A stretch of DNA of 64,000 nucleotides, taken from the NCBI GenBank assembly GCA_935421135.1, contig OW285190.1:1116001-1180000 (forward strand), given 5' to 3'. The notes below the pieces were generated by a model. It saw only the letters and a program-made list of their open reading frames with translations, had not been told where the DNA came from and did not search any database. Positions 1 to 56,916 of this stretch are shown in pieces (position 1 is the stretch's first letter; each line of letters starts with the position of its first letter). Source of the stretch: Bugulina stolonifera (taxonomy: Eukaryota; Bryozoa; Gymnolaemata; Cheilostomatida; Bugulidae). The position numbers and the translations under genes are program-made.

Positions 1-43
1 GTATATAGAGACATTTTTACCAGTCTACATTGTATATGCTTAC

Positions 44-3000
44 ATTGTGAAAGTATTTGGTGGACACTAGAGTAACAGGACTGGAGAGTTGGACAATAAC
101 TGGTAAACAAGTCTTTTCCATCTGGAACTTTGAATGAACCTGACCAAATGAATTGCTTCCAAATATATACATCTCACCCTAGAATAAAGCAGAGACAGCG
201 GTATAACAGCACCCATACTTTACTGTAGATCACAACGATTACATGGTATAACAGCACCCATACTTTACTGTAGATCACAACGATTACATGGTAATTATGT
301 GTAAGTACGACGTGGTATACAAGTACTACATAATATACAAGTACTACATGATATACAAGTACTACATGATATACAAGTACTACATGATATACAAGTACTA
401 CATGGTATACAAGTACTACATGATATACAAGTACTACATGATATACAAGTACTACATGATATACAAGTACTACATGATATACAAGTACTACATGATATAC
501 AAGTACTACATGATATACAAGTACTACATGATATACAAGTACTACATAATATACAAGTACTACATAATATACAAGTACTACATAATATACAAGTACTACA
601 TGATATACAAGTACTACATGATATACAAGTACTACATAATATACAAGTACTACATGATATACAAGTACTACATGATATACAAGTACTACATGATATACAA
701 GTACTACATAATATACAAGTACTACATAATATACAAGTACTACATAATATACAAGTACTACATGATATACAAGTACTACATGATATACAAGTACTACATA
801 ATATACAAGTACTACATGATATACAAGTACTACATGATATACAAGTACTACATGATATACAAGTACTACATGGTATACAAGTACTACATAATATACAAGT
901 ACTACATGATATACAAGTACTACATGATATACAAGTACTACATGGTATACAAGTACTACATGATATACAAGTACTACATGATATACAAGTACTACATGAT
1001 ATACAAGTACTACATGATATACAAGTACTACATGATATACAAGTACTACATGATATACAAGTACTACATGATATACAAGTACTACATGATATACAAGTAC
1101 TACATGATATACAAGTACTACATGATATACAAGTACTACATGATATACAAGTACTACATGATATACAAGTACTACATGATATACAAGTACTACATGATAT
1201 ACAAGTACTAGATGTACAACTCACGATGTGGGAGAGGGCGATAGAGTGGGCGTGGCCTGCAGCTATACAGGAAATAAAGACACGGTTAAGGGCCTCTATA
1301 AGTTTGGGAGATGCTTGGTTTTCTATATCACCGTGTCCAAGTTGTCCAAACACACCCCAACCCCAGCTGTACACCCTAGGAAGAAAGAACAGCTGATGTA
1401 TGCTATGTGTACATTACAGAGCGCCAGCACACACGTGTACTAACCACTGTTAGTCCACAACTGTAAGCAATCCTCCATATCTATACGTCACACAGTCATG
1501 TAAGTATCTATACAGTAAGTAAATAGACATGTAAAACAAGAAACACCCACCTGCCGGAGGTGTCCAACGCCAGGGTGTGGTATCTGCCACACACGACATC
1601 CACACAATCCACTGGCACTGGTACACAGGTGTCATATTCCTGGAAGAAACCTGCACCAACCTGCCCATAGACAGAGCTGCCACAACCTTGTAGCTATAAA
1701 AAGCAACAAAATAGTGATGTACACTACTCTACATGTACACTACTCTACATACACACTACTCTACATGTACACTACTCTACATATACACTACTCTACATAT
1801 ACACTACTCTACGTATACACTACTCTACATATACACTACTCTACATATACACTACTCTACATATACACTACTCTACATATACACTACTCTACATATACAC
1901 TACTCTACATATACACTACTCTACATGTACACTACTCTACATGTACACTACTCTACATATACACTACTCTACATATACACTACTCTACATATACACTACT
2001 CTACATATACACTACTCTACATATACACTACTCTACATATACACTACTCTACATATACACTACTCTACATGTACACTACTCTACATATACACTACTCTAC
2101 GTGTACACTACTCTACATATACACTACTCTACATATACACTACTCTACATATACATTACTCTACGTGTACACTACTCTACATATACACTACACTACATGT
2201 ACACTACTCTACATATGCACTACTCTACATGTACACTACTCTACGTGTACACTACTCTACATATACACTACACTACATGTAAACTACTCTACATATGCAC
2301 TACTCTACATATACACTACTCTACGTGTACACTACTCTACATATACACTACACTACATGTACACTGCTCTATACTCACACCAAAGGAGCTGAGAATCATA
2401 AGGTGTTTCTCTCCACTGGATATAGCTTTAACTTCACTTTGATTGTTAGACAAGTTACTGGCAATACTAGGTGTGGATACTTTGACCCTTTCTTCGATAC
2501 TCAATCTAAAAAATGGATAATATCATGCTGCAATCACTTGGGAGGACTAGATATTTATATAATAGATACTTATATAATGAGTACTTACTTATATAGTAGA
2601 TATTCACTCATATACATGTAGTATACTTACATGTATATAGTAGATACTTACATGTAGTAGATACTTACATGTATATAGTAGATACTTACATGTATATAGT
2701 AGAAACTTACATGTATATAGTAGATACTTACTTAGATAGCCTGGTTGAAGATCCCCAGCTAAAGACTGCGTCTCTATGTATGCTGTAGACCTTGTTAGAA
2801 CAACAGGAAATGGGCCGACACACCTGCTTACATTGCAGTGTTAGACTACCGTGTCCCTTCAATACATCATATACATATACAGTGTACCTTATATTACAGT
2901 GTACCTTATATTACAGTGTACCTTATATTACAGCGTACCTTATATTACAGTGTACCTTATATTACAGTGTACCTTATATTACAGCGTACCTTATATTACA

Positions 3001-6000
3001 GTGTACCTTATATTACAGTGTATCTTATATTAAAATGTATCTTATATTACAGTGTATCATATATTACAGTGTATCTTATATTAAAATGTATCTTATATTA
3101 CAGCGTACCTTATATTACAGTGTACCTTATATTACAGCGTACCTTATATTAGAGTGTACCTTATATTACAGTGTATCTTATATTAAAATGTATCTTATAT
3201 TACAGTGTATCATATATTACAGTGTATCTTATATTAAAATGTATCTTATATTACAGTGTATCTTATATTACAGCGTATCTTATATTACAGTGTATCTCAT
3301 ATTAAAGTGTATCTTATATTACAGTGTATCTTATATTACAGTGTATCTTATATTACAGCGCAGTTCATTATTATCATCATGTAATAGGGCAAGTGCAGTT
3401 TAATTCTCTTTAGCAAGAGTAATAAGATTTAGGCCAACTGCATCTTCACACAACTCCTAACAATATACCTGCGTTTCGAGACTTGAGGCTTTCTGAACTG
3501 CAGCTAAGCTGTTTAGTTGAGGAAGCAGTAGACACTTATGAGGTAAATGTGTAGACAACTTGAGTAATATTTTTATGTAGAATAAGTAGAGCCCGGCTGT
3601 GAATTCTCCTACTGAGAGCTTATCGGAGTTATCCCCCTCGTCTACATCCTACAGAAAAAAAATGTTGTATGACAGCTTGGGAGTTTGTCTTCCCTTTGAT
3701 GCAAACTTTAGATTACCTCAGAGCTTCAAAAGTCTCTAGTCTCAGCTCACCAGTGTCAGAGCAAAACAAAGTAACTCATAAACCTTATTCCAGGGTCATT
3801 CCTAGGGTTTAAAATTCTAATGCAAGAGTAATTTTAAACATTAAACCGAGAGAACATGTTACCTCTCATTTTAAAACCCTAAAAATCATGCCAATTAAAA
3901 TGCTTTTTGAATTTACCACTTTAAAACTACTACTTAAAACCTTTCCTCCAGAATTTTTATTTTCACTGATGACAAAAAGCCATCACAACACACGGCAACA
4001 AAGCCTTAAAACAAAGAAAGCCAACAACAAACGAGGTGAAAGGTCCTTGTTGAACACAGGAATTGTCCTGTACAACAAGTACCTAATGGGGATGGAGACT
4101 GGCACCGCTGCCTGTCGCGTGGATGGTCTGGCTGCTCTCGTGTGGGGGGTCGCTTAGGGCCGGTGGAGACTGCATGTCCCTGCCGTCCTTGCATGGGGTG
4201 GTTCTGCGGCGGTGAAGAGCTTTTTAGTTGGGCAGCCTTTTCTCTAGCTTCGGGCTATCTGGTTTGTCCCTTTGCTTTTTTTATATATGTCTTTTTAATA
4301 TATTTTATATCTTTCAAAAATAGCAATAAACGCACTAAACTAAAAAAAAACCTCCATCTTTTGCTTTAGTCTAACAGAGTTTTATACACTTTTCCCAGCA
4401 TCTGCTGAGCAGATATGACTGTGTAAACAAATGTGTACCTGATGGAGGCTAGCGTAAGACTGGGCACCTATAACATCCAAATACTCTCTGTAGCTAGTGA
4501 TGGTTTGGTGTATAAAGTTTGAGTATGGGTGATATCGTTGGGCTAGAAGCTGCAGAGCTAAGTCTTCGACTTCGTTTAGTCTAACAAGCAGCCAGCGCAG
4601 GTTAGATATGGTGATGGACTCTGCAGTTAGCAGGTAAGTACAAAAGTCTTCCGTGCTCAGTAGATATACAACAGTACCTACAATATACTCAGTATATATA
4701 CAACAGTACCTACAATATACTCAGTATATATACAACAGTACCTACAATACACTCAGTAGATATACAACAGTACATACAAAATATACGGTATATATGCATG
4801 TACAACAGTACATAAAATATACTTAGTATATAATATACTCTTTGTTACACACCTGATAATACAGAGCCCAAAGCATATACAAACTCTCTGTTAAGGATGA
4901 ATTGGTGTAATATACCAGATGTGAGCTTCTGTTGAGTATATACATGCTCTATGGCCCCTTGTATGAACCTCCTTTGCTGTCATGAATATCAGAGATTATA
5001 TATATAAACTATCAGCTACGTTATCACCAAAAACTACACTGCTTATACCTTCAATGTGTATGCATAGCTATATCACAGTGTACAGTATATGTTAATGCTC
5101 ACATACATACATGCACATGTATATCTACAGAGTACATGTATAACTACAGAGTACATGTATATCTACAGAGTACATGTATATCTACAGAGTACATGTATAT
5201 CTACAGAGTACATGTATATCTACAGAGTACATGTATATCTACAGAGTACATGTATATCTACAGAGTACATGTATATCTACAGAGTACATGTATATCTACA
5301 GAGTACATGTATATCTACAGAGTACATGTATATCTACAGAGTACATGTATATCTACAGAGTACATGTATATCTACAGAGTACATGTATATCTACAGAGTA
5401 CATGTATATCTACAGAGTACATGTATATCTACAGAGTACATGTATATCTACAGAGTACATGTATATCTACAGAGTACATGTATATCTACAGAGTACATGT
5501 ATATCTACAGAGTACATGTATATCTACAGAGTACATGTATATCTACAGAGTACATGTATATCTACAGAGTACATGTATATCTACAGAGTACATGTATATC
5601 TACAGAGTACATGTATATCTACAGAGTACATGTATATCTACAGAGTACATGTATATCTACAGAGTACATGTATATCTACAGAGTACATGTATATCTACAG
5701 AGTACATGTATATCTACAGAGTACATGTATATCTACAGAGTACATGTATATCTACAGAGTACATGTACATGTATATCTACAGAGTACATGTACATGTATA
5801 TCTACAGAGTACATGCACATGTATATCTACAGAGTACATGATCCAGTGCTCTTTTTGTAGGGGGCTCTCTGGGCTCCCGGGAGCCCCCTCAAAAAATCAT
5901 AGTTTGTTGAGGGGGCTCCCGGGAGTCCTCTCAACAAATTGCCATTTTAAAAGTAAGAGTTTAAAAAGTAGCCGTAGCCATAGCTAGGCATCATGCATGA

Positions 6001-9000
6001 TGCATTTTATTAGAAACATACATGTACATGTACATGTTACCTCACCTGGTACATGTATATCAATATGCTATGGTGAACCCCAATGTTGGCTCATGATTCC
6101 AGACTATATATACATGTATAACATACATGTATGAATTGTAGTGAGCAGCCAGCTAAGGAGAATAGCTACCTTGCATGTGTTACTAAACTGAATGTGCTTT
6201 AAAGGGTCGACCCAATGCATTAGTGAATGATATGTATAATTTTATGTTTTTACCATTCCCCCCGACTTGTCACATAGGACCGACTGCTGTACCTCGGCGC
6301 TCAGGTGCCCACAGTTATTTCCTAGTTGCCCTTCCCACCACTCCGTCAAACTATGTGTGTTATAAGGACCGATTGACAGCTATTTTACGTAATTAAAGTA
6401 TAAACACATTTATTTTATTTTTCCCCGAGATAATATGATTTATTACGGTTTTTAATAACATTTATTTGAGCATCCATGATTCTGTATAATTTGATATAGG
6501 AACGACCCCTGGTCTCCTTCCCCCACAATCCCAAGACCCCTGGTAGCTCCCCCGCCGAAAGTGAGTTTACTATATAAATGAGTGCATTTTGCTGCAGTAG
6601 TCAGTTGTTCCTTGAACTGCAATAAAAACACTTCCATATACTTTGTGGTGCTTTTAGCTAGGAATCTATTAGCCTAGGTTCATGACAGAGCCGAAAGCCA
6701 GAGGAACTAGCATAGAGTCGTACCCATAAGGTTGTCAACACAAGAAGGAACACTCGGACCTACCAGTCATAATAATAAGCCGCAAGTAGCTCATCTATCA
6801 CTTAGTGCATGAAAAGTGGAGGACCGATAGACCACTTACGGTCCTTCCCACATGACTACAAGTGTACGCAAGAACTTTACAATGTAAAATTAGCGCAATA
6901 TTCAACATCAGATTGGTGGCGATTAGCTTGAGAACTATAAAAGCTGTGCGGAACTCTTTCAATAGCCTCTCTTCTTAGAGACACTATAGCCTCTAACTCA
7001 TTTATACATTCGATCCTCCACTGGAGTTATTTGTGCCCAGACCCTATGTTATGTTACGCTATAACATGGTGGAAAAAAGGGAGGTACAGTGCAATTGACG
7101 AAAATGCCAAATGCCAAACATCATAACAGGGATGAACAATTCCCTATTGTCTAGGAAATCTTAGCAAAGTAACTCTAATCACTTATATGTATAGGATGAT
7201 TTGTATGCAAGGAATTTGTCTTTTGAGCAGTCAGAGACTTGTTTGACATCCATGAAAATACCAGTTCCTCACCGGGTTTGAACCCGGCACCTCTGCGACA
7301 TCTAATCGCCTAGCACAGTGAGCGGACCTACTACCGCTACACCAGCTCAGCAACTTTATAAAAGGAAGCTTTGCCAGGGAGCAGTAGATATGCTCTGAGC
7401 CAACTGCACACAAATCATCCCTCATATTACGACCACCTTGCTATAAATTATATTCCGCAAACCATTTGACCAAGCGAATGCAGTAGGAGTGCTATGCAGC
7501 ATGTGTGAAGGTGAGAGCGGGAGGGAACCTGAAATATGTAGGGAGCCCCTCAACTGATCTTACAAAAAAGCACTGACATGATCCCATGTCTACGTTTTTG
7601 GTAAATAGAATGTTTTCATTCGGCCCATACCAAGCCCACTGTAATTGCTGATAAACCAAATCATCTGCTATAATCCAAAGATAAGGTAAATTCAGCTGCT
7701 ACACTACAGCTTGATGGCTGAGTAGTTGTCATAAATGCTGAAGGGCAGTACTCGATTCTCAATAGAGCTAATTTATACTGTACTGTTTTATAATCTGCTC
7801 AGATTTTAAACTGACAGCACTATTTTATACATATATACAGGACACACGGAAGCTTATCTAGTTTGTTAGCTGCTACTATGTAACAGGTTATACAATGAGT
7901 TTTATATGAATATTGTTATTTTAAGCTTGTACCAGCATTTTAACCTATTAGCATATACTGTATATCAAGCATAGTACACTTGTAGCTAGCATTTTTATTC
8001 TAAACATCAACTCACCCACCAGGGCGGTAAATTGGGGAGAACTCTACCCTCAAGCAAAAAGTATGCTAATATCAAAATAATAAATCAATTCTCATATGAG
8101 TAGAACTAAATATCTCTCAAGTTATGACCAACAGACTTGCAATGTGTCTCCACTTTACATTCATGTGTGTTAATATGTTTAGTACATACCAAAGCCAGCT
8201 CTAACAACAACTTTATGTGTCCCTTTCTACAGAGTGATCTCATAGCTTGGTCTAAAGAATAGTTCTTCTCATAAAGCAAAAACTCTCTGCAACAAGAAGA
8301 GTAATCTAATTAGTAAGTAATAATAACCAATTAACTGAAGGATTTAGTGATTTCACCTTAATAGTAACAACATTTAGTACTAGTAGAAGCGGCATTACCT
8401 GAACTGGGTGTAATATGGGGAGCCCTGTACATCTCCCTCTGTCACTGACAGGAATGATGTGAGAACTGTGTTACTGACACTACTAGTTGAAGCATCCGCA
8501 TGTGAAGTAAAAGAGGGAGGAGCAGAATAATCTAGAATATCTCTGCTTGTTCGTATAACCAGCTCGTGCTGACTGTACTTGTGTAACATGCTTATCTTTG
8601 TCAAATCATCGCACTATGTGTAGAGAAATTACACGGTTTATATAGGACACACTATGCATAGAAACATTACACTAAGTTTTGATACATCACACTATGTATA
8701 GACCATGCATACAAGTACATGTAGATATATTACATATCTAAACAGTGTATAGATACATTGTACATTACACATCTATAGATAATTAAACATCTACAATGTA
8801 TAGATACATTACACATCTATAGATAATTACATATCCATAATGTATAGATACATTATATATCTATAGATAATTAAACATCTACAATGTATAGATACATTAC
8901 ACATCTATAGATAATTACATATATATAATGTATAGATACATTATATATCTATAGATAATTAAACATCTACAACGTATACATGTAGATACATTACATATCT

Positions 9001-12000
9001 ATAGATACATTACACATCTATAATGTATAGATACAACATTAAACATGTATAAACTATTTACAGATACATTACAGCTGTGTAGACCACATGGCATATGCAT
9101 TCCACTTACAGTCAGTACAACTAATTAAAATTAATACAAAGTAAAGGTAATGAGTAGAGAATGCTGACCCTAATATTGTTTGATTACCAAAAAAAGGGGA
9201 ACATACTTTAGAGTGAGAGAGACAGTCCAAAGCCTGTGTCACATTGCCATGCTGGAGGAGGTAGTTTGCACTGCGCAGGTACAGATTGAGAATATCAATA
9301 TGAGTAACTTGGGCTAAGCACTCGAGTCTCTCCACATGCATGTGCTCACTAGTACACCAGTTGAGAAAGAGCTGTTCGGCTGACAGTCTGTAGTAGTATA
9401 TTAGTAAAGTAACTCTTATAATCATATATTGGACGCACTGTAAATACGTGTAATACGATACAGGAAGATATCTATGAATATTGAAATGTGGACCCATAGT
9501 ACACATGTAATGCCATAATTATCATAACATACTCAGGTATATATATAAATATATATACTGTATGATAACATACTCAGGTATAATATATATACTGTATGAT
9601 AACATACTCAGGTATATATATACTGTATGATAACATACTCAGGTATATATATACTGTATGATAACATACTCAGGTATATATATACTGTATGATAACATAC
9701 TCAGGTATATATATATACTGTATGATAACATACTCAGGTATATATATACTGTATGATAACATACTCAGGTATATATATATAATATACTGTATGATAACAT
9801 ACTCAGGTATATATATACTGTATGATAACATACTCAGGTACATATATATATATATACTGCATGATAACATACTCAGGCACAAACTGTATGACTCTTCTGT
9901 TGGTTATGATTAAACAGCCGTCTAATAGAGTGTGAGTCAGCGATGCACAGTCATAGTTTGAGGAGGTTTCCACTAGTGCATTATACCTGCAGTGTATGTA
10001 ATAAATACAGCATAGTATATTACAGCCAATCACACCTATTACATATAAGTATATGCACTAATGTTGATATGTTTTACCAGTTAAGTACACAAGTATACAT
10101 AATATACAATAGTACTATTTAGAAGTTTTCGATTTTATTCCCTATATTTCAATACAGTCTTAGATTCATCATCAGAGGAATATAAAAGCTCTAAGTTCCT
10201 CTTCTGATGATACTAGGACTAGTAACAAATTTCTAACCTGTCTAACCTATCCCGTAGTGGTCAGAGATGGGTGACCTGTCTAACCTATCCCGTAGTGGTC
10301 AGAGATGGGTGACCTGTCTAACTTATCCCGTCGTGGTCAGAGATGGGTAACCTGTCTAACCTATCCCGTAGTGGTCAGAGATGGGTGACCTGTCTAACCT
10401 ATCTCGCCGTGGTCAGAGATGGGTAACCTGTCTGACCTATCTCGTAGTGGTCAGAGATGGGTGACCTGTCTAACCTATCCCGTAGTGGTCAGAGATGGGT
10501 GACCTGTCTAACCTATCCCGTCGTGGTCAGAGATGGGTAACCTGTCTAACCTATCCCGTAGTGGTCAGAGATGGGTGACCTGTCTAACCTATCCCGTAGT
10601 GGCCAGAGATGGGTGACCTGTCTAACCTATCCCATAGTGGCCAGAGATGGGTGACCTGTCTAACCTATCCCGTAGTGGTCAGAGATGGGTGACCTGTCTA
10701 ACCTATCCCGTAGTGGTCAGAGATGGGTGACCTGTCTAACCTATCCCGTCGTGGTCAGAGATGGGTAACCTGTCTAACCTATCCCGTAGTGGTCAGAGAT
10801 AGGTGACCTGTCTAACCTATCCCGTAGTGGCCAGAGATGGGTGACCTGTCTAACCTATCCCGTAGTGGTCAGAGATGGGTGACCTGTCTAACCTACCCCG
10901 TAGTGGCCAGAGATGGGTGACCTGTCTAACCTATCCCGTAGTGGTCAGAGATGGGTGACCTGTCTAACCTATCCCGTAGTGGTCAGAGATGGGTGACCTG
11001 TCTAACCTATCCCGTTGTGGTCAGAGATGGGTGACAGTTCCTAACCTATCCCGTTGTGGTCAGAGATGGGTGACAGTTCTGCAAAGCACCAAGCTAAATC
11101 ACAGTCTGTCCTCTGTGTCATATTCACCAAGGTCCATCTCCTCATGTTTTCATTCACTGTATCATAAAGTCTCTGTTTTAATCTTCCCCTTCTTCTCTTT
11201 CCCTGCACCTTCATCCCTGCTACCATTCCTACGTCTTCCTCTTCATTTCTCCCGCAGGCATGCCCAAAACATTGAGGTTGACGTCTCCTCATGCCCACAA
11301 CAATCGCCTCAAGTTTTGCTATTTTTTAAAGCCATCATTTGTAAAATGGTCTTCCCCACTAATATTGTAGAGATACAGGAGCATTTGTATTTCTGTAGTG
11401 CTGACCTTATCTTCCTGTCCTTGTGCTATTAGCCAGACTTCATTTCCAGACATCAGCGTCGGTTTGATTGCAGTTTTATACAACAGAATCTTCTCATCAC
11501 ACATAACACCAGTGAGCTCTCTCCAACTATTGCATGCTCTCTCTATCCTCTTTGCTACCTCCTTTCCACACTCTCCTAGTCTATTGCTGTGCCTACATGT
11601 TGATATTTGAAGCTGAAGGCTATTGGCAGTTCTGTTTGATTATACTCTTTCACCGCAACCGTTTCACTATCGCCAGATGGCGGTAGGTGTTCAATCTTTG
11701 ACCTACTGATTTTTTAGTCCAGCACCTTCCAGTCATCCTCTCCAGTTCTCCAGTCTCTCTTCTACTGTATCTTGTCCTTAGATTCATTACATAGTACCAA
11801 GTCATCAGCAAAGAGCATTGCTCACGACGTTTCCCCGTTGTGTTTTCGGTCAAAGTATCAAAGAAAAGGATAAACAGGAAACGGCCAATTTCTGTCTCTC
11901 AACTGTAGTAACCACAGCCGTTTCACACTCATGGTAAATGTATCGAAACAAGGAATAAAATCAAAAATTTGTCTAGTACTATTGCATATCAACACATCAA

Positions 12001-15000
12001 CACCTACAAATATACATGTAGGCCTATGCTATATACAGGTACAAGTACACTGTATGTACTGTATATACCATGAGATGGGGAACTTGATAGAAGACATGTA
12101 TTGGATGGTCTCATCTTCCTCCAGGTTATACTTGAGTATTTCATGGCCTCTCTACAACAAAATTGTACAGTATGTAAATACAGATTATACAATTCATGTA
12201 CTTTATGCATATTGTATATACATGAGTATATTATGTGTCTGCGTATAATACAATACCTACACTTGTAGATAATTTATAAATATAATTTGTTGTATATCCC
12301 ATCTATATACATTGCGTACCCCACATATACATGTACATGTACGTATACACTTTGCATACAAGTCAGTTATTGAGTTATTGCTATCAATGACTGATATTAA
12401 TGACTTATACCACAACACTGTAACTCATACCACAACTGTAACTCATACCACAACTGTAACTCATACCACAACTGTAACTCATGCCACAACTGTAACTCAT
12501 ACCACAACTGTAACTCATACCACAACTGTAACTCACACCACAACTGTAACTCACATCACACAACTGTAACTCATACCACAACTATAACTCACGCCACAAC
12601 TGTAACTCACACCACAACTGTAACTCACACCACAACTGTAACTCACACCACAACTGTAACTCACACCACAACTGTAACTCATACCACAACTGTAACTCAT
12701 ACCACAACTGTAACTCATACCACAACTGTAACTCATACCACAACTGTAACTCATACCACAACTGTAACTCATACCACAACTGTAACTCATACCACAACTG
12801 TAACTCATACCACAACTGTAACTCATACCACAACTGTAACTCATACCACAACTGTAACTCATGCCACAACTGTAACTCATACCACAACTGTAACTCATAC
12901 CACAACTGTAACTCACACCACAACTGTAACTCACATCACACAACTGTAACTCATACCACAACTATAACTCACGCCACAACTGTAACTCACACCACAACTG
13001 TAACTCACACCACAACTGTAACTCACACCACAACTGTAACTCACACCACAACTGTAACTCACACCACAACTGTAACTCATACCACAACTGTAACTCATAC
13101 CACAACTGTAACTCATACCACAACTGTAACTCATACCACAACTGTAACTCATACCACAACTGTAACTCATACCACAACTGTAACTCATACCACAACTGTA
13201 ACTCATACCACAACTGTAACTCATACCACAACTGTAACTCATACCACAACTGTAACTCATACCACAACTGTAACTCGTACCACAACTGTAACTCGTACTA
13301 CAACTGTAACTCATACCACAACTGTAACTCATACCACAACTGTAACTCATACCACAACTGTAACTCACAGTCTGCTTTTGGTTACAAGTGAAACAAAAAT
13401 TTCCAAATGAATATGATCATAGAGTGGGCAGTGGATGTGAAAGCCACAGTTGTTCAAAGCATTTGTTGTTATCATTGGAAATGTTATTATCTGGTATTGC
13501 TATATGACTCACTATTTTCATTACCTCTTACTCTGAACAGTTCACTGGCTTAGTGCAGTTTAAGTTATTCAGTATTGAGTACGGAGTTATTAGTTCTCAA
13601 ACTCAACCTTTTAGCAGTCAAATACAGGTTACTGACTGATAGCCCTGTTATACTCTAGTAAGTAGAGAGTTATCCCCTCCTTGTTTAATTTCTCAACCAT
13701 TACAATAACATAATTATAATATTAAACTGTTTGTCCACAAAGAACTTCTTTTGTAGAGATTAAAAAAAGAAACTGAGTGCGGGGAGCCAACTCTGTAAAA
13801 TAATTAATAAAGGCCATACGCTCCACCTTGTCACCATTACAATCTCTTTCTGACAGCTGATTGGCCAGCACTATGACATGTTTATGTGCCAGAGCACAGA
13901 ATGTCAGCCTGTCAGTGTAAACCAGGTGCTCTGTCCAACTTGGCAGGTTGTAAACAAAGAGTGGATGGTGCTCCATACTGCTGTCATATATCTACAAGAG
14001 CATAAAACAACAGTGTAATAGAAATAGCAATAGCTTTCTCTAAATGCTAAATTATGAACGATTGGCTGCTACATAAAATCTTATATAAGTTGTGCTCAAA
14101 TGCCCATACCGCCAGTTGTTGAATACTAGTACCCTGCTTATACATGTACAGTAATTTGCGACTGTTCGAAAATTCCAGTTAGAAACAGGACGTTCCGGAA
14201 ACTTTCGAACCTCAAACCCCAGACCCAAATGAACGTTTTCGGAACGTCCTGTTTCCAACTGACACTTTTAAAACTTTCTTTTACCCATGTACAGGACATA
14301 TAAAGAGAGAAAGTGTGGGTACCTTGAGGGAGGTGTCAGTCTTATCGACAGCTGAGATGAGGTGACATCCTTTAGCACTTTGATACTTGAGGGATACAGA
14401 TATGGGTACATTGGTGAATCTGTGTGGCAGGAACTGACCATCACTGTCAGCAGGTGAGTGAAGTATGGACTTGATATACGTGTTACCTGCAACATGCATA
14501 CCATGTTAAATATTACACTATATACCATGTGACATATTATATACCATGTGACATATTATACACCATGTGACATATTATATACCATATGAAATATTATATA
14601 ACATCACCATGTGACATATTATATACCATGTGACATATTACATACTACATGATACAACCTATCCCATGTGACATATTACATACTACATGATATAACCTAT
14701 ACCATGTGACATAGTATACACCATGTGACATATTTGATCAAACCAGAGAAGCCAAGTGTTCAAATTCAACTTGGATCACTAGTGATGTCACAAAGACACG
14801 ATGAAGGCACAGCTGTTCAAGTACAGTTACGCCAATGATAATTTTGGTTGAGAGGTGTTTGACATGTGCAAACAAACTAATTTACAATTTGTCAAATATT
14901 TATTATGACAGCATATACACTACATTGTACATGTATTAATCTTATTATTTGACTAAATATAAAATTATTTAATCGTTTTTAATTAGCATCATCGTTGTAT

Positions 15001-17801: not shown

Positions 17802-18371
17802 TCTACAACTGATGACACAATGTAGGTTACATACAACATGAAGTTCAATCTGTAACATAACATGATGACTACTAGGGCGACAGATAAGAAAACCTCAATT
17901 TTTAGCTTAGCTATGATAATTCCATGGCATGCACATTTAAGATAATCACAAACTTGCCCCAATATCAGAATTGTGCCACATTTAACCGGGTGTTTTTGTC
18001 AGAAATGCCTCCGTCTGTTTGCAGTTGGGTCAATTGGGTTTCCAAAAAGTAAATAAAGAAGACAACTTTTTGTACTTCTATTGTTTAAAACAAAGGTCAT
18101 TTCATTTACTGTTCAATTCTGCACCTAACACCTTTAGCCACCGGTTTCGTCAGTAGGTCTTAGGAATGACTCGATACTATGTACAAAGATAGTGAAAAGA
18201 CAGATGGGTCACCCAATGATAATACCCTGTCCCACTAAATACACCCAATTTGGCAGTCGCCATCTATCTACTGAGTTTTTGGAAAGCTGTTCGACAAGCA
18301 TTGCAGTATAATGCTCGTATATTGCATACCCTGTAATAAAATAGCATTTATATAAATATATTGTTCATACT

Positions 18372-18532: not shown

Positions 18533-18534
18533 AC

Positions 18535-21560: not shown

Positions 21561-21624
21561 TATGATATTGTTGGTTGGTGGAGTTTTGTCCTCCTTTTCA
21601 TCAGTTGTAATCTGGCCAACCTAT

Positions 21625-37147: not shown

Positions 37148-40100
37148 TCAGTAGCCTTTCCTCCAATCGATGAGATAGTTGAGAGGTCTATCGCTGACAT
37201 AATTGTGTAAGTTTTCTATCACAGCGTCAGCAACCTACATGCAAGTATTAGAGTAAATATGGTTAGCTAATAGGGCGTATGTACCTAACAGAGTACAGAA
37301 ACACCTGCTATAGCCTTAGTTCTAACACAACCAGTGGCTCATTCCTGTATGCTTCAAGTGAATTTGGATTGTTGGTATTCAAAGTCTATTACACACACAA
37401 ACATGTAGAATACTGTAATTATTTTTCTGGAGTATTTTGGGCAGCATACCATAGCTACAAAGCTGCATGTAATAATACAGTACATGAACAAAAAGCAAAA
37501 TTCCATTACAGTAAGGTACATGAATAGATACACCTGCTATGTGTGGTGTTATAGTAACATACCTGATGGGGCATAGATACACCTGCTATGTGTGGTGTTA
37601 TAGTAACATACCTAATGGGGCATAGATACACCTGCTATGTGTGGTGTTATACGAGGGTCATTCAGTAAGTAAGGTGAATTTTTTCATAGGACTTGTATTG
37701 TACATAGAAACATTTTTTTTTATTCTACTACACAGTCTCCATTTAATGATACACATTTTTTCTTTCTGTATATGAGCTTCTGAATTTCTTCTACATAAAA
37801 ATCTTTGGATTGGCATTTTAGCCAATCGCTCACAGTTATCTGTACCTCTTCATCACCAGTGAAATGTTTTCCTCTCATGAACTCTTTAAGGGGTCCAAAC
37901 AAGTAGAAATCAGATGGGGTAAGATCTGGGCTATAGGGTGGATGAGGTAGCAGTTCCCAACCATACTGGTAGATGGTTTCCACTGTTGTGGCTGCAGTGT
38001 GAGGTCTGGCATTGTCATGCTCAGGGGTCAGCATTATGGAAACCCATCGACAGCTGACTTTGGAGTAGGAGAGATTTTCATGAACAATTCTGTGTGCTGT
38101 ACCTACTGATATGCCTAATTTTCTTGAGATGTCATCCACTCTCAGTCTTCTTTCAGTCCTAATGAGATTATCCACAGATTGGGTCATGGTATAGGTTCTC
38201 ACCTCTGTAGGCCTTTCTTGATCATGAACACTTGTCCGGCCTTCTTTGAACAATTTACCCCATTTGTAGACTTTTTTTGCCAAAACAAACTGTTCCATAC
38301 ACATTTAACATCCTGCTATAGGCCTACATTTTTCTGGGTTTACATCCTTCAGACACAAAAAATTTTATTCCTGACCTCTGCTCAATCCTGGAGCATTCTG
38401 CTTGATTGGCGATTTGGAAAAATCTCAAAAGATGTAATCATAATCTCAAAATAAGTTGGTGGGTGTTTTTAAATAGAAATTATGTAGAAAAATAAAAAAA
38501 AAAAAAATTTCTATGTACATGAAAAAATTCACCTTACTTACTGAATGACCCTCGTAATAACATACCTGATGGGGCATAGAAACACCTGCTATGTGTGGTA
38601 TTATAGTAACATACCTGATGGGGCATAGAAACACCTGCTATGTGTGGTATTATAGTAACATACCTGATGGGGCATAGAAACACCTGCTATGTGTGGTGTT
38701 ATAGTAACATACCTGATGGGGCATAGAAACACCTGCTATGTGTGGTATTATAGTAACATACCTGATGGGGCATAGAAACACCTGCTATGTGTGGTATTAT
38801 AGTAACATACCTGATGGGGCATAGAAACACCTGCTATGTGTGGTATTATAGTAACATACCTGATGGGGCATAGAAACACCTGCTATGTGTGGTATTATAG
38901 TAACATACCTGATGGGGCATAGAAACACCTGCTATGTGTGGTATTATAGTAACATACCTGATGGGGCATAGAAACACCTGCTATGTGTGGTATTATAGTA
39001 ACATACCTGATGGGGCATAGAAACGCCTGCTATGTGTGGTGTTATAGTAACGTTAGGGTGAGTCCAGAGAGGAGAGGTCTTGGGCAATGGCTCAGTGGGG
39101 AAGACATCCAATATGGCAGCTCGTATCCACTTCTGTCTATCAACACAACATAATCACATATTAGTATAATCACCAATAGACAGCATAAACAGTACATCAG
39201 AGTTGTGACAGACACATGTATTCGCTTACTCCAAAGCCTGCAGTATAGATGTTTCAGTGCAGATATCACCCCGTCCCACATTGATGAATACAGACTTCTT
39301 AGGACCACAGGCTTCAAGTCTACCATTGTCTAGGAGTGCACGAGTCAAAGGTGTGCTGGGTAAGATGTTGCAGATATAGTCACAGCTAGATAGCACCTCA
39401 TCCAGTCCATTAGACAGCCTGTACATAATACATGTGTATGTAATAAAATAGAACACAGACAGATGACATATACTGTATGTCAACTCTTCTGAGGGCAGAG
39501 AGTGAGTAAAATAATTGACTAATGGAACAAGTGGAATGTTTAGCTCCCTCAATATTTCACAAGTGTAAAGTTTAGAAAGAATACAGTATTTTGGATGCGA
39601 GTGAATTATTCCAAACACAAATCCATCAAATCCTACACTGTTGTAATAATTATAAGTTAGCAGAAGGATCTGACAGCTGTGTCGAAAAGAAGGGAGATTA
39701 AAAGAAAAATTAGAAAAATCATCTGCATGCATAAAGTCTCAATAATTATCTATAATATAGTACCATATAAGACAATATAACATAATGTAGCATATTAAAA
39801 TATTATAATGATATAAATGTAGCCATAATAAAATATAATAAAAGATAAAATTATACATCAGTTTCCTTACCATTTAAGGATCCTTACCATTTAGGATAAC
39901 AATTTATTGCATATTCAGTCGTATGATACACTATAGCATAGGAGTTGATAACTATAGCACAGTAGTTGATAACTATAGCACGGTAGTTGATACACTATAG
40001 CACAGTAGTTGATACAATATAGCAGAGTCATTAATACACGATAGTAACTTTCACAAATATCAACCAAAATTAAGCCATGTCTGTCTTTACCATTGTTCGG

Positions 40101-46043: not shown

Positions 46044-46049
46044 TTTTAG

Positions 46050-47940: not shown

Positions 47941-48008
47941 ACCCAGGTCATGTGCTATTCATATTTGGTTGCAGCCCAGCCCACACTCTTACACAGACCC
48001 AAGTCACT

Positions 48009-51000
48009 ATGCCACCCAAGAGAGCAGCTGCTACTAAAACGGAATCGCCTAGTCGCCGAAAAGGAGGTCGCCCTAAAAAGATGGACACTGATGAGACAGG
48101 TAAGCTTTGGCGGAGATGTTAAAAATAAGTTGCAGTGACTACAAATATGCCCATGCAAGCCAATGTAGACCTTGGTGCAGTCAGTTGGTAACATTTGAAT
48201 AAGGCAACTGTTAGACAAATAGCTCTCCCCATTCCCATGCAGTGTCTGATATGGCACGAGGAGTCTTGGTCTATGTTGACCATCAAGTACATGTACATGT
48301 TCTATCATCTCATCCTTTGATTTCCACTTGTTTGGCTTGTTCCTGAGGAGCACTTAGATAAGGATTGTCTTGGCTGGGAGTGAATTGTTCAAAAATTAAA
48401 CCACATTGTATACGATTTAACAACGCTCCTATGCAAAAGTTAGTGGCAAGTCAAGACATCTGTGTGGAACAGGAGGATTATTATCTGACAAGAGTGAAAT
48501 TAATGTACATCTGTAGCGCTGAACAGCACCCTGAGCTGTGAATAAAGTCTGATTATTTGTATACTGGTCCTCATTCATTACAACTTGGAAAGTCTATTAT
48601 ACTCGTAGGCGATGGTGAACAAATAGCAGAAACGGAACTAGCTGAGGGAGCTGATCCTGTTGAAGAAGAGGAGATAACTGAAGAAAGTGCAACCCGTATG
48701 TTACATTGTATAATATGTAGTACAGTATGTGCTGTAGTGTATGTGTAGGTATATGTGCTGTAGTCTAGGTATATACTCAATAAAACACTTAGTGTGTCTT
48801 AATATTCTATGCCTAAACTGGTTCTTCTCCCTGTTGATTGTGTAGCTAAGAGAAGGGGCCGACCAAGGAGGTCCAAGTCTGCAGCTGCAGTAGCTGAAGA
48901 GACAGAGGATGGTGAGGAGTTACCCACCATCACCCTGAATATAGATGACATCATTGACCTTCCAGCCACGTCCAACAAGAAGAGGAAAGCACCGACCAAG
49001 TCTACTGCCACCAAGTATGTCTGTTGCCTCTATGTCTATGTATGTACAGTAGGATAGAGTTTCTGTTAAATAGTGTGCTGTATAATACTGCATGTAATGT
49101 TACACGTTATAGAAACTATTACATGTATATAATTGGTGTTTAGAAAAGGCAAGTCGGACACGAGCATGAGGGAGGTTGGAGGTGGTGGGGATGGAGAGAA
49201 TCTCATCCAGTGTACGCTGTGTGATGCCCGAGTGGTGCAGCTCGTGCGACACATCAGAGCCCAGCACGGGGACGACCCCGACTATGATAGTAAGATCAAA
49301 GAAGCAAGATCTCTGGAGGCAAAGGTGCAAAGCCATACACCTCGCAAGGTAATTCACACGTCACTCTACATTGTACTATCAATAGCAGATCAGATTCACT
49401 TCCAATATATATAGTAGTTGGTGTCATATTACATGGCCTACGTGTTGATATATCACAGACTGGAAGTAACTTACTCGATGATCTGACTATCACAGTTGGT
49501 AAGATGGCAAAGGAGCCAATAGTAGATAGGCGTACTATCCCAGGAGAGAGAGGAAACAGCCTGGTGAGACCGAAGAACACTCAGTGTCCTATATGTGAGA
49601 AGGTAGGTAGACCTAAATATATTATAGTTTTCTCTGTATAAAACAACAGGTGTGTGTTTAAGGGACTATATACTTGTATATCTTTACATACGTGCACTAA
49701 TGTGTGGTAGGTGGTGAGGCGCTATGACCTCAACAAGCACATAAGGAATGTGCACTCTGGGGAGAAGCCAAACAAGTGCCCCTACTGTGATTACGCGTCC
49801 CCATGGAAAGGCAATCTCAATACCCACATTGCCGGTGTGCATACCAAGGCAAGGCTCCATGACTGCATCCGCTGTGGCCTGTCCTTCAAGACAAGGAGTG
49901 CCATGATTGGTCATGTTCGTAAGGTACACGACAAGATGTACCAACCCAAAGAGAGACTGTTCGAGTGTGAGGAGTGTTTCAAGAAGTTTTACAAGAAATT
50001 TCATCTTCAACGGCACATTCGAGTTCACACAGGTATGTACAGTGGCAGTAGATATATAGGCTACACCATTACATAGTATAATACACACAGGTATATACAG
50101 TGGTAGTAGATACACCATTACATAGTATAGTACACACAGGTATATACAGTGGTAGTAGATACACATTACATAGTATAGTACGCACAGGTATGTACAGTGG
50201 TAGTAGAAATATACACCATTACATAGTATGGTACGCACAGGTATGTACAGTGGTAGTAGAAATATACATCATTACATAGTATGGTACACACAGGTCTGTA
50301 CAGTGGTAGTAGATATATACACCATTACATCGTATAGTACACACAGGTATATACAGTGGTAGTAGATATATACACCATTACATAGTATAGTACACACAGG
50401 TATATACAGTGGTAGTAGATACACCATTACATAGTATGGTACGCACAGGTATGTACAGTGGTAGTAGATACACCATTACATAGTATAGTACACACAGGTA
50501 TATACAGTGGTAGTAGATATATACACCATTACATAGTATAGTACGCACAGGTATGTACAGTGGTAGTAGATACACATTACATAGTATAGTACACACAGGT
50601 ATGTACAGTGGTAGTAGAAATATACATCATTACATAGTATAGTACACACAGGTCTGTACAGTGGTAGTAGATATATACACCATTACATCGTATAGTACAC
50701 ACAGGTATATACAGTGGTAGTAGATACACATTACATAGTATAGTACACACAGGTATATACAGTGGTAGTAGATATATACACCATTACATAGTATAGTACA
50801 CACAGGTATATACAGTGGTAGTAGATACACCATTACATAGTATGGTACGCACAGGTATGTACAGTGGTAGTAGATACACCATTACATAGTATAGTACACA
50901 CAGGTATATACAGTGGTAGTAGAAATATACACCATTACATAGTATAGTACACACAGGTATATACAGTGGTAGTAGATACACCATTACATAGTATGGTACG

Positions 51001-54000
51001 CACAGGTATGTACAGTGGTAGTAGATACACCATTACATAGTATAGTACACACAGGTATATACAGTGGTAGTAGATATATACACCATTACATAGTATAGTA
51101 CGCACAGGTATGTACAGTGGTAGTAGATACACATTACATAGTATAGTACACACAGGTATGTACAGTGGTAGTAGAAATATACATCATTACATAGTATAGT
51201 ACACACAGGTCTGTACAGTGGTAGTAGATATATACACCATTACATCGTATAGTACACACAGGTATATACAGTGGTAGTAGATACACATTACATAGTATAG
51301 TACACACAGGTATATACAGTGGTAGTAGATATATACACCATTACATAGTATAGTACACACAGGTATATACAGTGGTAGTAGATACACCATTACATAGTAT
51401 AGTACACACAGGTATATACAGTGGTAGTAGAAATATACACATTACATAGTATAGTACGCACAGGTATGTACAGTGGTAGTAGAAATATACATCATTACAT
51501 AGTATGGTGCACACAGGTATATACAGTGGTAGTAGATATATACACCATTACATAGTATAGTACACACAGGTATATGCAGTGGTAGTAGATACACATTACA
51601 TAGTATAGTACACACAGGTATATACAGTGGTAGTAGATACACCATTACATAGTATAGTACACACAGGTATATACAGTGGTAGTAGATATATACACCATTA
51701 CATAGTATGGTACACACACGTATATACAGTGGTAGCAGATACATGCACCATTACATCATATAGTACAGCGATAAACACAGAGTATTGTAACAGTGTAGAG
51801 CAATGCTGTATTAAAGTATGAATCTGTTCCACTGCTGTAGGGGAGAAACCGTTTGTGTGTGCTTTCTGTGAGAAGATGTTTGCCAGCAAGACGAATATGG
51901 ACTCTCACATTCAGAGTGTACACCTCAAAATAAAACCATTCAAGTGTGGCTACTGTGAGAAGGTAGGTCAGTTGGCCGTCATTCACTCGGCTGGTGCTCC
52001 TACTCTACCCATCAGTGTGCTTCCCACTAAGGCTACAACGTTATTGGTATTCATAGGAGTTGCTTACCCATGAAGGCTGGTGTTGTGGGGACACAACTCC
52101 AAGATAGTGTTGTAATGATGCAGTATATCTACATGTAATTTAATCAGCAAAAGGACCGTAATAATATTGTGTGAACTTACATGTAGTGTAATTAGTAATT
52201 CTCTCTCCATCATCTCAGTGCACCCACCCTTTATGTAATCGGATTAAAATTAAATTTATTCAAATATTCAAATGAACAATAACTGAATATCACTATAAGA
52301 TATGATGTATGTCAATGTACCTATGGACAGGGATTTGCTCGTAAGAAGATGATGCTGCTACACATTAGGAAACATCATATGAACAAGGACAGTGACAACA
52401 CTATAGGACTGGCCAACATGATTGACATTGACGACGTGACGTTAGATGATAACTTGGACAACGAGAGCAACGCCAGCATTGAGAGTGGAGAGATATTGGG
52501 TGGAGGTGACTCTGGCATGGTGAGTTATACACATATTAATGTGACAGCAAAATATAATATGAACAATTAAGCTGGAATCTGCATCACAACCTGTACAATG
52601 ATTGGTCAGCTGTCTCTGTTAACTCTGACAAAGTATGTGTTTATAGATTCTGCATACTCTGCTTGATGCGAGTAGATTGCCCATAGATCTATGTAAATGT
52701 GGAGATAGTAATTGCAGTGCTATTCTGATGTGTCTTGTATCATCATTGCTAGCATTTCATCTCCATCACCCGCTTCATTCTGCCTCAGATTACATGGCAT
52801 CCCCTTGTTCACTTTTGATTGTATGTACAAGTGCACTTTGTGTCATAACACAGGTCCTCATTAAGATGAGAGACGATGGTGCAGGAGAGAGTGATGACCC
52901 AGTGAAGCAGTACATGTTTGTACCTGCTAATGACCTGCCATCTGACCTGGACAATACATTGGACACTACAGCAGCTGATAGGACCACTGACAGCATAGAT
53001 GAATCTATGGACACAAGCACAGCAGCCGCTGCCTCTACTAGTGCTGCTGCCGAGGATCAGATGACAAAGGAGACACCTGCTACTGCTATCACTCCAGCTG
53101 TAGCAAATGTAGAGAAAGCACCTCTTGCTGCTGCCACCACCAGCCAGCCAGTTGTTATCAACGTAGCAGTAAGTACCCATCCTCCGCCCCAATCACACCA
53201 TTTGTTGTGAAGTAGACAGACTACCGTACCGGCATACATACACACAATTACCTGCTCTTTCATATACATGCATACACACATATATTATAATATACTATCC
53301 AACTATTCATCTTCTTGTACTTGCTAGCCTACCCAAGTTGTGCAAGCTGTGCAAACATCTGAAGGTATCATGCTGGTAACACAGTCTGCCACCATCACTG
53401 ACAATGTGGATAACACTACCACTGTGATTGCCCCACCTCCCTCCTCTGCTACCAATGGTGAAGGTGATGGTGCTGCAGTCGAGGCTACAGACACTACTGT
53501 TAATGATACTAACCAATCAGTCGCGAAGGAAAGCACTCAGGTAAATATGACGTTGTATGTGTACATATGCACGGTAATTTCACTACAGTAAATTTATCCT
53601 ATAGTCGTTGTAAGTACACTCGTACATTCTCTATATTCTCTATATATTATTGTAATGGTGTCTATGTATAATATGCAGGAGGCTGATACTGTATCATCTG
53701 CCACTACAGACCTGGTACAGCAGGCACTCAGTGAAACTCTTCCAGAAGTAACAGCAGCCGGTGATGGTGGTGAACAGGTTAGTAGGTTCAGTGTCACAGT
53801 AGGTTAGTAGGTTCAGTGTCATAGTAGGTTAGTAGGTACAGTATTATCCATTTGCCAACTGTAGTAACTGAATAAGTTAGTAAGCAATCAGCACAGCTAA
53901 TAGCTACCAGAAGTGCAGTTGTACATCTTAAAAGTGAATACTAAAGCTGATGAATCACCATTAACAAAAATGGTCAGTAAGGTAGTTGGATAGATACATG

Positions 54001-56916
54001 TACTTTGTAGTTTACACCGTATAATAGCACTTAGACTTACTTACTGTGTATCACTTACTGTGTCTGTGTATGTTTGCAGGGGACAAACACTAAAGAATCT
54101 GTAATAAACAGTAGCTCTGATCTGACTGTAGGACTTCCAGCCAACCTGCTGGCTTCTGAGGAAGGAGAACAGGTACTCTAACTATCTGTGTCTTATCTAG
54201 TGCTGCACAGTGTTTCGGTTTCATTCAGTTTTTTCTTGCGTTTCAAAAACTGCAAAATTTTTGATATGCAAGCCAAATGCAGCAGTTCAGTGCGATTCAG
54301 TTTTAAAATTCAAACCGCGCCTGGCCCCTTAGCGCACTTCTGATAATAGCGTGTGTTGCGAACACGTGAATCCATATAATGCTTCTTTCAATCTTTATAT
54401 ACAGTGGAACTTGCTTAATTCAACCTTGGATAATTCCAAAACTGGTTAGTTCAAACTGTTAGCCTTGGTCACTGCTGAGCACTATATAAACAGCTTCAAA
54501 TAATTCAAACTTACCATCTGTAATTGAAACTTCATGCGGCTTAGGCTCACACTATAATCAATGATAATACTATCACAGCTAGCATTAGTCACCTAATAAT
54601 CGTTGCTAGTAGTTATTTGTAGTTACTACTGCAATATGTTTCTGCTCAAGCTACGCTGGGAAAACCCACTAATTGCTTTACTGTTCCTTAGCTACATGTA
54701 AATGCGTTTTTATACTGTTGCCCTGTACATGGGATGCATGTCATTATATAAAATGAAGGGATAACATAATTCAAACCAATATGGTGGTCCCTGGGAGTTT
54801 GAATTAAGCAAGTTCCACTGTAATTCGTTGTCATCCTCGTAATACAGATTTAGCTGCACCCGTCTTCGTCACCCAGTGATGACTTGCTGTAGTTTCACTC
54901 AATTCTAGTAGTCATACTTACATATTATTATAAGCAATTAGTATTTAATAATTACGATTTATTGAACAAATACAAAATGGCTCCCATTACATTTGAAAGC
55001 AGAATGTAATACCAAAGAGGGTTAAAGGAAAGAGGGATCACTCAATGATAATACCCTGTCTCACCAAATACGCCCAGTTTGGCGGTACCGACGTTCCATG
55101 ATCAGCTTTTCCGCCATTTGCCTACTGACATTCTGGATAGCTGTTTGACTGCTATCAAATCTTACGACCGTTATATTTAGGATCCTGTATTGATATCTCG
55201 TTAATGGAAATAGAGGGTTTATACTAGTGCTGGGCGGTGTTTCGGTGTCATTCAGTTTTTTCGGTTTTTTTTCATTCGGTTCAAAAACCGCCAAAATTTA
55301 AAATGTGAACCGACACCAAATGCGGCGGTGCGGTTTTATTCGGTTTTAAAAGTCAAACCGCGCCTGGCCTCTTAGCGCACCCACTTTCAATAATGGCTGG
55401 CGTTGAAAACACGTGAATTCATGTTATGCTTCTTTCAATCCTTATAATTCGATGCCATCCTTGAAATTTAGACTTAGCTGCAGCCATAATATAATCACTC
55501 AGTGGCTATTTATTGTAGTTTCACTCCTTTATAGCAGTTACGATTGCAGATTATTATAAATAATAAATATTTAATAATTGTTAACTATTAAACTAAATGA
55601 AAATGGCTGCCATTTTAGTGCTTCTTTTAATCCTTATAATTCGATGCCATCCTTGGAATACAGACTTAGCTGCAGCCATCAATGTCACCCAGTAAGGGTT
55701 TACTGTAGTTTTCATTTGATTCTAGTAGTCAAACTTGCATATAGTTATAAATAATTAATATTTAATTATTGCAAATTATTGAACAAAATAAAAATGGCGG
55801 CCATTTCCGGTAATGGCTGAAACTCCGAACACATGAATTTATGTCATGCATCTTTCAATCTTTATAATTCGATGTCATCCTTTGAATAAATACTTAGCTA
55901 CAGCCATCATTGTCACCCAGAGATGATTTACTTTAGTTTCACTGAATTCCAGTTGTTATACTTCCATATTATTATAGATGATTGGCATTTAATAATTGCA
56001 ATTTATTAAAGAAAATTTAAAATGGCCGCCACTACAGCATAAAAGCAGGGTGTGACAACTCCAATATTGAGTATTTAATTTCCGGTTCGGTGTTTTTTCA
56101 TGAATTAAAAAAACTGAATTAAACCGAGGGTGAGAAGACAACTTCGGTTTCATTCAGTTTTTTAGAAAAATCAGCAAAAAAACTGAATGCACATGCAAAT
56201 CAAAACCGCCCAGCACTAGTTTATACGAGCCCGTTGTAAAGACCCGCTTCTTATTGGTCCGCGGAACACCAATCATCATAACGGATTTGCACACAAAGTA
56301 GCATACCTCCTTACCTGGTCCGTACCGCATTTGGAGGCGGGCGGGAGACAGTTTTTGGCCGGAGTGATCCCTCTTTCCTTTTACGCTCTTTGGTAATACT
56401 TCCAAAAGTGAGCATTTAGTTTCGGTTTGATTCAGTATTTTTTTCATGAATTTCAAAAACCGAATTAAACCGAGGGTTAATTCACAACTTCGGTTTTATT
56501 TAGTTTTTTTTTCAAAAATAAGAAAACAGCTGAAAGCAAGTGCAGATCAAAACCGCCCAGCACTAGTATTATCTGTGACCTACTCTATTACACCACATAC
56601 TGTAGTACATATTACAGTGGTAGATATTATATACTAGAACTAGAGTGTACACACTACACTGTACACCCCTGGTACGCCGCTGTTTATCTAGTATCCACAC
56701 TTATCTAGTATCCACACTTGTCTAGTATACACACTTGTCTAGTATACACACTTGTCTAGTATCCACACTTGTCTAGTATATACACTTGTCTAGTATACAC
56801 ACTGTCTAGTATACACACTGTCTAGTATCTAATAGAGCTTATCATCACTTGTGTTGTAGACCAATGGAGAAGTAGAAACCTTCTACATAAAGGATTTGCA
56901 AAATAGCGCTGCCTAA
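48009..56916 (+). CDS. AT-hook and C2H2 zinc-finger protein, 13 exons, complete
   Basis: Exons: 48009-48099, 48609-48695, 48846-49014, 49144-49348, 49459-49602, 49711-50032, 51841-51962, 52331-52519, 52854-53168, 53328-53540, 53679-53777, 54080-54172 and 56860-56916 (TAA). All are GT-AG and the phases agree; 701 residues. The start is the MPPKRAAATK ATG. AT-hooks: KGGRPKK (18-24) and KRRGRPRR (61-68), each on its own exon with acidic stretches between. Seven C2H2 fingers start at about residues 139 (short, C-x2-C-x9-H-x4-H), 227, 255, 284, 318, 346 and 375; several are split by introns. HSGEKP, VHTG and EKP linkers are present. Residues 397-701 form an acidic, then Thr/Ala/Gln-rich tail suggesting a trans-regulatory region. 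It is likely a nuclear DNA-binding regulator; no specific ortholog is assigned. Confidence 0.92.
50024..51740 (+). repeat. About 50-54-bp junction minisatellite with 557-bp higher-order copies
   Basis: Exon 6 of the zinc-finger gene ends TTCACACAG and its intron opens GTATGTACAGTGGCAGTAGA. The unit ends ACACACAG and restarts GTATATACAGTGGTAGTAGA, through CACCATTACATAGTATAGTA, so each of about 30 units carries the junction. Two length variants exist (with or without ATATA). Blocks starting near 50378 and 50630 recur 557 bases later at 50935 and 51187, showing a recent segmental duplication inside the array. Confidence 0.95.
53772..53842 (+). repeat. 25-bp repeat beginning at a donor, about 2.5 copies
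   Basis: Exon 11 of the zinc-finger gene ends GAACAG. The intron reads GTTAGTAGGTTCAGTGTCAC followed by AGTAG, and then repeats. The unit starts exactly at the GT donor and ends with an AG, so it looks like an early stage of the larger junction arrays. Confidence 0.88.
54402..54820. mobile_element. Pogo/Tigger-like MITE
   Basis: The ends CAGTGGAACTTGCTTAATTC and GAATTAAGCAAGTTCCACTG are perfect inverses with TA on both sides; 419 bp, noncoding. The CAGTGGAAC-type terminus is characteristic of pogo-group Tc1/mariner relatives. Confidence 0.88.
55011..56394. mobile_element. CTCTTTGGT-end TIR element, split by a later hAT insertion
   Basis: The left end ACCAAAGAGGGTTAAAGGAA and right end TTTCCTTTTACGCTCTTTGG match as inverted repeats of about 34 bp with some mismatches. 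Left and right internal segments match the copy at 18182-19332. A 68-bp miniature with the same ends is at 58483-58550. No transposase is evident. Confidence 0.78.
55225..56218. mobile_element. Inner hAT-type element with perfect target duplication
   Basis: The ends TAGTGCTGGGCGGT are inverted at the two sides. The perfect 8-bp duplication GTTTATAC lies at 55217-55224 and 56219-56226. It belongs to the same family as the outer element. The interior has repeated TTTATAATTCGATGCCATCC and AAAATGGC blocks and no clear transposase. Confidence 0.88.
56682..56832. repeat. 17-bp tandem repeat just before the last exon
   Basis: About nine copies of TCTAGTATACACACTTG with variants lie in the 3' end of zinc-finger-gene intron 12, ending about 30 bases before the terminal acceptor. 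Confidence 0.9.

Follow-up and report, generated by a model that had tools for sequence, protein, structure and literature searches.

Tandem duplications across exon–intron boundaries have been reported from amphioxus, where minisatellite-like duplications termed mirages are described in the Adh3, globin, troponin C and PGBD5 genes (PMC3087553, PMC3902484). They are reported at both 5′ and 3′ boundaries, measure 10–72 bp in Adh3 and reportedly leave splicing undisturbed (PMC3087553, PMC3902484). A second related system is intron gain by tandem duplication (the Rogers model), for which ATP2A1, a 24-bp case in fission yeast and potato RdRp have been put forward (PMC4974935).

Here we examine a 64-kb stretch of Bugulina stolonifera chromosome 4 (positions 1116001–1180000; the window), from a genome assembled from long (HiFi) reads (PMC10213821), of which 234,951,659 bases in 27 contigs were searched for comparison. 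A sequence-only reading of the window had described minisatellites seeded at 5′ splice sites and had pointed to boundary minisatellites in amphioxus, correctly, these being the mirages (PMC3087553). No report of minisatellites or mirages in bryozoans was found among the titles and abstract openings listed, a search that covered the subscription literature thinly.

Genes and splice sites in the window

The large gene of the window, on the minus strand, carries RCC1 repeats recognised by Pfam, and its exons 1 to 14 were placed by aligning a Bugula neritina protein (P0001, 52% identity), the one homologue to reach E ≤ 0.001 when 7991 candidates were scored. P0001 itself is without the RCC1 part, and the RCC1-repeat locus (1–17850) may be one gene or two. 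Reverse-transcriptase-like reading frames, their translations judged by eye, lie at 18500–19110 and 32590–34130.

The dehydrogenase gene encodes a 2-Hacid_dh_C domain (Pfam) and has a Watersipora homologue (P0002, 54%), from which the junction MPHQ|V follows: ...VSMPHQ at 39007 continues with V/ADAVIENLHNY from 37234, in a minus-strand exon at 37234–37151. A GC donor (AAAG|GCGAGT) may close the third dehydrogenase exon at 40922 on the minus strand: GT donors scoring ≥0 are missing there, and splicing from this site would keep the following exon in frame, giving KKVASGCKAFG. Similarity of the SVIP-like gene to B. neritina P0122 (73% identity across 56 residues) extends as far as ...ALS at 35256; its next exon, WKVG-stop at 36284, was selected from five AG|TGG candidates for resemblance to LSWKME of P0122. 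The junction of the zinc-finger gene at 50032 was set by HTG|EKPF in the joined exons, a typical zinc-finger linker. Nine window splice sites at which no candidate scored ≥0, including an exon end near 13815, were positioned by homology or by eye.

Tandem arrays cross exon–intron boundaries

TRF returned 72 rows of tandem arrays in the 64-kb window, and boundary-crossing arrays with exon bases at 5′ splice sites are real. In the RCC1-repeat gene, a 31-bp array (9549–9877, minus strand) crosses the donor 9873/9872 and includes 5 exon bases, with P0001 residues 390–428 and 429–487 contiguous across the intron. A 23-bp array of 11.7 copies (35242–35511, plus strand) crosses the donor 35256/35257 of the SVIP-like gene with 15 exon bases, as placed by P0122 homology. 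In the 2-hydroxyacid dehydrogenase gene, a 49-bp array of 10.1 copies (38558–39051, minus strand) crosses the donor 39007/39006 at the P0002 junction with 45 exon bases; this array is interrupted by a mariner-like element (37652–38557) that has a transposase-like frame and inverted ends that match, and a further 2.6 copies of the unit stand beyond the insert (37524–37651). The zinc-finger gene has a 52–53-bp array of 34 copies (50022–51767, plus strand) that crosses the donor 50032/50033 at HTG|EKPF with 11 exon bases. A 25-bp array of 2.7 copies (53776–53842, plus strand) lies at the predicted donor 53777/53778 with 2 exon bases, the exon coming from an ab initio model only.

The sequence-only reading had counted seven introns whose array unit contains the donor. 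Those at 9872, 35257, 39006 and 50033 are borne out and that at 53778 is borne out on the ab initio model, whereas those at 2380 and 13368 are not. The array near 2380 (16-bp unit, 1720–2371, minus strand) begins some 7 bases within the intron that follows a donor at 2379 or 2381 (9 bases with the adjacent GT as donor), and the TRF array thus leaves the donor out. An 18-bp array (12403–13367, minus strand) sits within a long intron of the RCC1-repeat gene; P0001 residue 357 falls on an exon whose end is near 13815 and residue 363 on one that begins at 12151, with no space for a further exon between them, and the donor proposed at 13368 is therefore unsupported. No donor scoring ≥0 was found near 13815, where the exon end was placed by eye.

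Four more arrays had been said to start within about 20 bases of a donor. This is so for an 18-bp array of 50.7 copies listed at 1224 (303–1214, minus strand), which starts 10 bases into the intron after donor 1225; for a 21-bp array of the RCC1-repeat gene (2548–2731, minus strand), which runs from the first intron base of donor 2732/2731 on a weaker model; and for a 23-bp array listed at 16335 (16104–16320, minus strand), which starts 15 bases into the intron after donor 16336. The fourth, listed at 4852, begins 69 bases away and covers the 3′ splice site at 4677 instead, leaving three failures (13368, 4852 and 2380) among eleven listed places.

Boundary arrays also occur at 3′ splice sites. 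In the RCC1-repeat gene a 32-bp array of 4 copies (4656–4783, minus strand) crosses the acceptor at 4677, as aligned with P0001, and includes 22 exon bases.

Boundary arrays in a genome sample

Profile searches of the genome gave 143 Pkinase and 72 Helicase_C matches, from each of which 30 loci were taken, and the sample was enlarged by 20 and 8 further regions out of 116 planned. Genes were modelled with our own gene finder and with splice matrices trained on 89 Pfam-anchored exons; the finder overlapped 82 of the 89 in frame and agreed with the anchor-based choice of donor in 58 and of acceptor in 55, and the splice sites of the sample are its predictions. Three of the eight regions, L094, L096 and L097, contributed no intron because the finder called no gene on their anchored strand.

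The 126 introns adjoining anchored exons have a median length of 311 bp, and 28 of them carry 29 arrays, which make up 9.8% of intron bases. Clear donor-crossing arrays were present at loci L041, L051, L062 and L085, a degenerate one at L031, and the array at L061 begins at the first intron base. At L071 an array crosses the acceptor and takes in 12 exon bases; L068 offers a weak case of the same kind. We take the products to resemble DDX18 at L051, DDX3 at L062, a NEK kinase at L085 and an SNF2 protein at L071, families whose sequence the joined exons of these four loci seem to follow. In all, boundary arrays were found at 6 of the 134 donors inspected in kinase and helicase genes.

Array-bearing introns are far commoner in the window (23 of 32 modelled) than in the sample (28 of 126, plus 0 of 8; P = 9 × 10−8), and the window therefore does not allow generalization. 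Within it, strong arrays (period ≥10, ≥2.5 copies, score ≥100) number 23 in 33.5 kb of hand-marked genic sequence versus 2 in the other 30.5 kb (binomial P = 2.6 × 10−5, for one window in which arrays are not independent), covering 29% and 0.7% of the sequence, respectively. A random 20 kb of C1 (L039, L040) contained no strong array.

Ladders of repeated splice sites

The claim that such introns open with ladders of potential donors is supported: in 8 of the 12 donor-touching arrays (those whose start lies on the first intron base or in the exon), the score of the first donor is equalled or bettered by later copies. Later GT sites scoring at least as high as the first number 9 at 35257, 9 at 39006, 10 at 50033 and 6 at 2731, and, among the genome loci, 9 in L051, 3 in L041, 2 in L031 and 2 in L085; there are none at 53778, L061 or L062. 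In the array at 9872 all donor copies fall below the counting floor, and the best later copy equals the first, both scoring −1.8. The acceptor array at 4656–4783 has identical AG sites at 4741, 4709 and 4677, of which the last, 4677, fits P0001. At 9873, 39007 and 35256, as at 4677, the exon-side copy continues the homologous protein, and the exon-side donor copy (at 4677 the last acceptor) would be the one used in the mRNA, to judge from protein homology. In that case the spliceosome would be selecting one donor out of at least 10 equals at 39007.

Array seeds appear evenly spread over introns

We compared array placement with a null model in which the first duplication of a unit of length u falls with equal chance at any position in contact with an intron whose length before array growth was L, so that the donor is crossed with probability u/(L + u). 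L was taken as the present intron minus array growth (median about 220 bp), and for the last dehydrogenase intron also minus the 905-base insert; the model assumes a single seed unit and simple growth. Both intron ends were modelled for 53 arrays. Dropped before the count were predicted introns of <60 bp, which removed L041, and zinc-finger introns with uncertain models; an array at 56687–56828, which has no known donor, and arrays of sampled loci beyond the modelled introns stayed outside the counts. A 56-array set adds SVIP, the last dehydrogenase intron and L041, omitted at first because they had no usable acceptor; these three additions were chosen as donor-crossing, L041 being re-entered by hand once its next exon had been located.

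Arrays touched the donor in 9 of 53 cases against 7.4 expected (P = 0.32), and in 12 of 56 against 7.7 expected (P = 0.067). Acceptors were touched in 3 of 53 cases against 7.4 expected (P = 0.04), or 3 of 56 (P = 0.03). Set against each other one-sidedly, donors and acceptors stood at 12 to 3 (P = 0.018), or 9 to 3 without the three additions (P = 0.073). Of the 53 arrays, 15 start no more than 25 bp from the donor (13.6 expected) and 14 end no more than 25 bp from the acceptor; in the set of 56, 17 starts fell within 20 bp of the donor, with 12.8 expected (P = 0.10). Requiring ≥3 exon bases gave 9 of 56 at the donor versus 7.0 expected (P = 0.25), requiring ≥3 copies gave 9 of 40 versus 5.2 (P = 0.057), and treating acceptor-crossing arrays as selected out raised the donor expectation to 9.3 of 56 (P = 0.17). 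Within the power of samples of this size, seed positions were flat over the pre-growth intron (KS P = 0.98 for 53 arrays and 0.81 for 56). Any extra fraction of arrays directed at donors has a 95% upper bound of 0.22 (56 arrays), and a modest true donor excess is possible.

The sharp peak of arrays at 5′ splice sites that the sequence-only reading had set as its test is absent from these flat seed distributions, which, together with the coverage of 3′ splice sites at 4677 and L071, also speak against its proposal that the junction seeds the arrays. Of its suggested genome-wide process, the recurrence of donor-crossing arrays in kinase and helicase genes survives, but neither 53 nor 56 arrays display the peak. 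With present-day intron lengths, the same 12 of 56 arrays would be set against 3.9 expected (P = 0.0003), an enrichment that may explain the strong impression of a pattern. Ignoring array growth is thus a trap, in which near-ordinary placement looks like strong donor seeding (P = 0.0003 versus 0.067).

Units share a composition but mostly not a sequence

A composition set of 89 non-redundant arrays was drawn from the window and L009–L098, some of them perhaps outside introns; units measure 12–108 bp, with medians of 7.3 copies and 91% match. Relative to non-array intron sequence, the consensus units contain AAA/TTT at 0.12 times, GTA/TAC at 2.4 times (0.114 versus 0.049 per position) and GTAC at 5 times the frequency, and purines alternate with pyrimidines more often (0.675 versus 0.541; P = 4 × 10−16). 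Neither AAA nor TTT occurs in 71 of the 89 units, compared with 34% of length-matched control windows (P = 9 × 10−19); this applies to 22 of 25 units in the window and 49 of 64 elsewhere. The 60-base flanks resemble other introns (AAA/TTT 0.041 versus 0.052; GTA/TAC 0.053 versus 0.049). Outside donor-crossing loci 60 of 73 units are also without AAA/TTT, and this shared triplet composition contradicts the statement that the junction is the arrays' common feature. The bias may reflect a mutational preference or selection against repeated T-tracts and A-runs in transcripts. Separately, G outnumbers C on the sense strand of 33 non-donor-crossing arrays in modelled genes (mean skew 0.149, positive in 23 of 33; P = 0.014).

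Over 500 pairs of units, the mean best ungapped score was 6.93 versus 6.99 in composition-matched models, with a slightly heavier tail (top 16 versus 14). A single spreading repeat family was rejected on this comparison, and the assertion that units differ completely needs softening: most are no more alike than composition predicts, but a few arrays do resemble one another. Window positions 2300–2500, used as a DNA query, gave 105 matches, many of them in other arrays of similar unit, 16–18-bp arrays among them, and picked out arrays with units like the window's 16-bp array at L099, L100 and L101 (C8 and C1; 1.1–1.6 kb), where our finder predicted no gene. A search of the 64 kb against Rfam gave nothing at the gathering threshold.

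Discussion

We think it probable that minisatellites are born at random in short introns and then filtered by splicing, with no process aimed at 5′ splice sites being needed. A tandem duplication at an essentially random spot in an originally short intron would found an array, from a seed presumably AAA/TTT-poor and GTA/TAC-rich like present units, and slippage or unequal exchange would then enlarge it. Where the founding segment takes in an exon end, copies made afterwards would carry the donor or the acceptor. Such boundary arrays would persist because the additional copies come to lie in the intron and the one adjoining the exon stays usable by the spliceosome. Acceptor-crossing arrays may be lost more often because extra AGs would interfere or be harder to ignore, and the somewhat lower number of acceptor arrays is suggestive of this. 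The bryozoan cases suggest a side effect of minisatellites growing in short introns, and one that could be widespread.

More tentatively, and in our view with clearly less probability, a sequence-driven bryozoan engine might amplify AAA/TTT-free, GTA/TAC-rich intronic segments. Donor motifs fit that composition, so such an engine would keep yielding ladders of near-identical donors from which the 5′-most copy is picked, and a donor bias of up to about one-fifth of arrays would be possible. Were this true, donor ladders would be a natural test of donor choice.

It is unlikely that a process acting at 5′ splice sites, such as transcription- or U1-linked breakage, repeatedly duplicates boundaries and so founds the arrays. 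The 12 donor-touching arrays where 7.7 were expected, their 12-to-3 ratio to acceptors and the 17 starts within 20 bp of a donor lean that way, but the seeds are flat, the count before the three additions was 9 of 53 against 7.4, any extra directed fraction is at most 0.22, and arrays cross acceptors at 4677 and in L071. We regard it as very unlikely that ladders are kept for a function, as extra U1 sites protecting transcripts or for graded donor choice: later copies do match or exceed the first donor score in 8 of 12 donor-touching arrays, but in 33 arrays not crossing donors GTRAGT is not favoured in sense (1 versus 2 antisense; 9 versus 3 for a looser pattern). An overlap produced by wrong donors or faulty assembly, of which 13368 is a case and which the several model-based splice sites might permit, is more improbable still, given that protein homology pins the junctions 9873, 35256 and 39007 and that the assembly is reported to come from long (HiFi) reads (PMC10213821). 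Least credible is the birth of introns by tandem duplication of AG|GT exon segments, a published model (PMC4974935) that some units containing exon bases and a GT donor recall, but none of the 56 arrays spans both ends of its own intron.

The comparison with known systems separates likewise. Tandem duplication of a segment with a splice signal is common to the Rogers model and the bryozoan arrays, but donor and acceptor both derive from copies of one unit in 0 of 56 arrays. Ordinary intronic minisatellites are alike in unit size, copy number and uniform-looking placement within introns, whereas the bryozoan arrays differ in their AAA/TTT-poor, GTA/TAC-rich units of alternating purines and pyrimidines. 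The closest likeness is to mirages: here too, tandem units hold a splice site and exon bases at both kinds of boundary, although the bryozoan cases sit among many more arrays that lie mostly away from boundaries. The unit spans the boundary at donors 9872, 35257, 39006 and 50033 and in L041, L051, L062 and L085, as well as at acceptors 4677 and L071, and units are mostly unrelated between genes (6.93 versus 6.99, with a few arrays alike). Judged by this anatomy, as read from genomic sequence alone, the bryozoan boundary arrays are mirages, so that boundary minisatellites, which we found reported from amphioxus, are now seen in a bryozoan.
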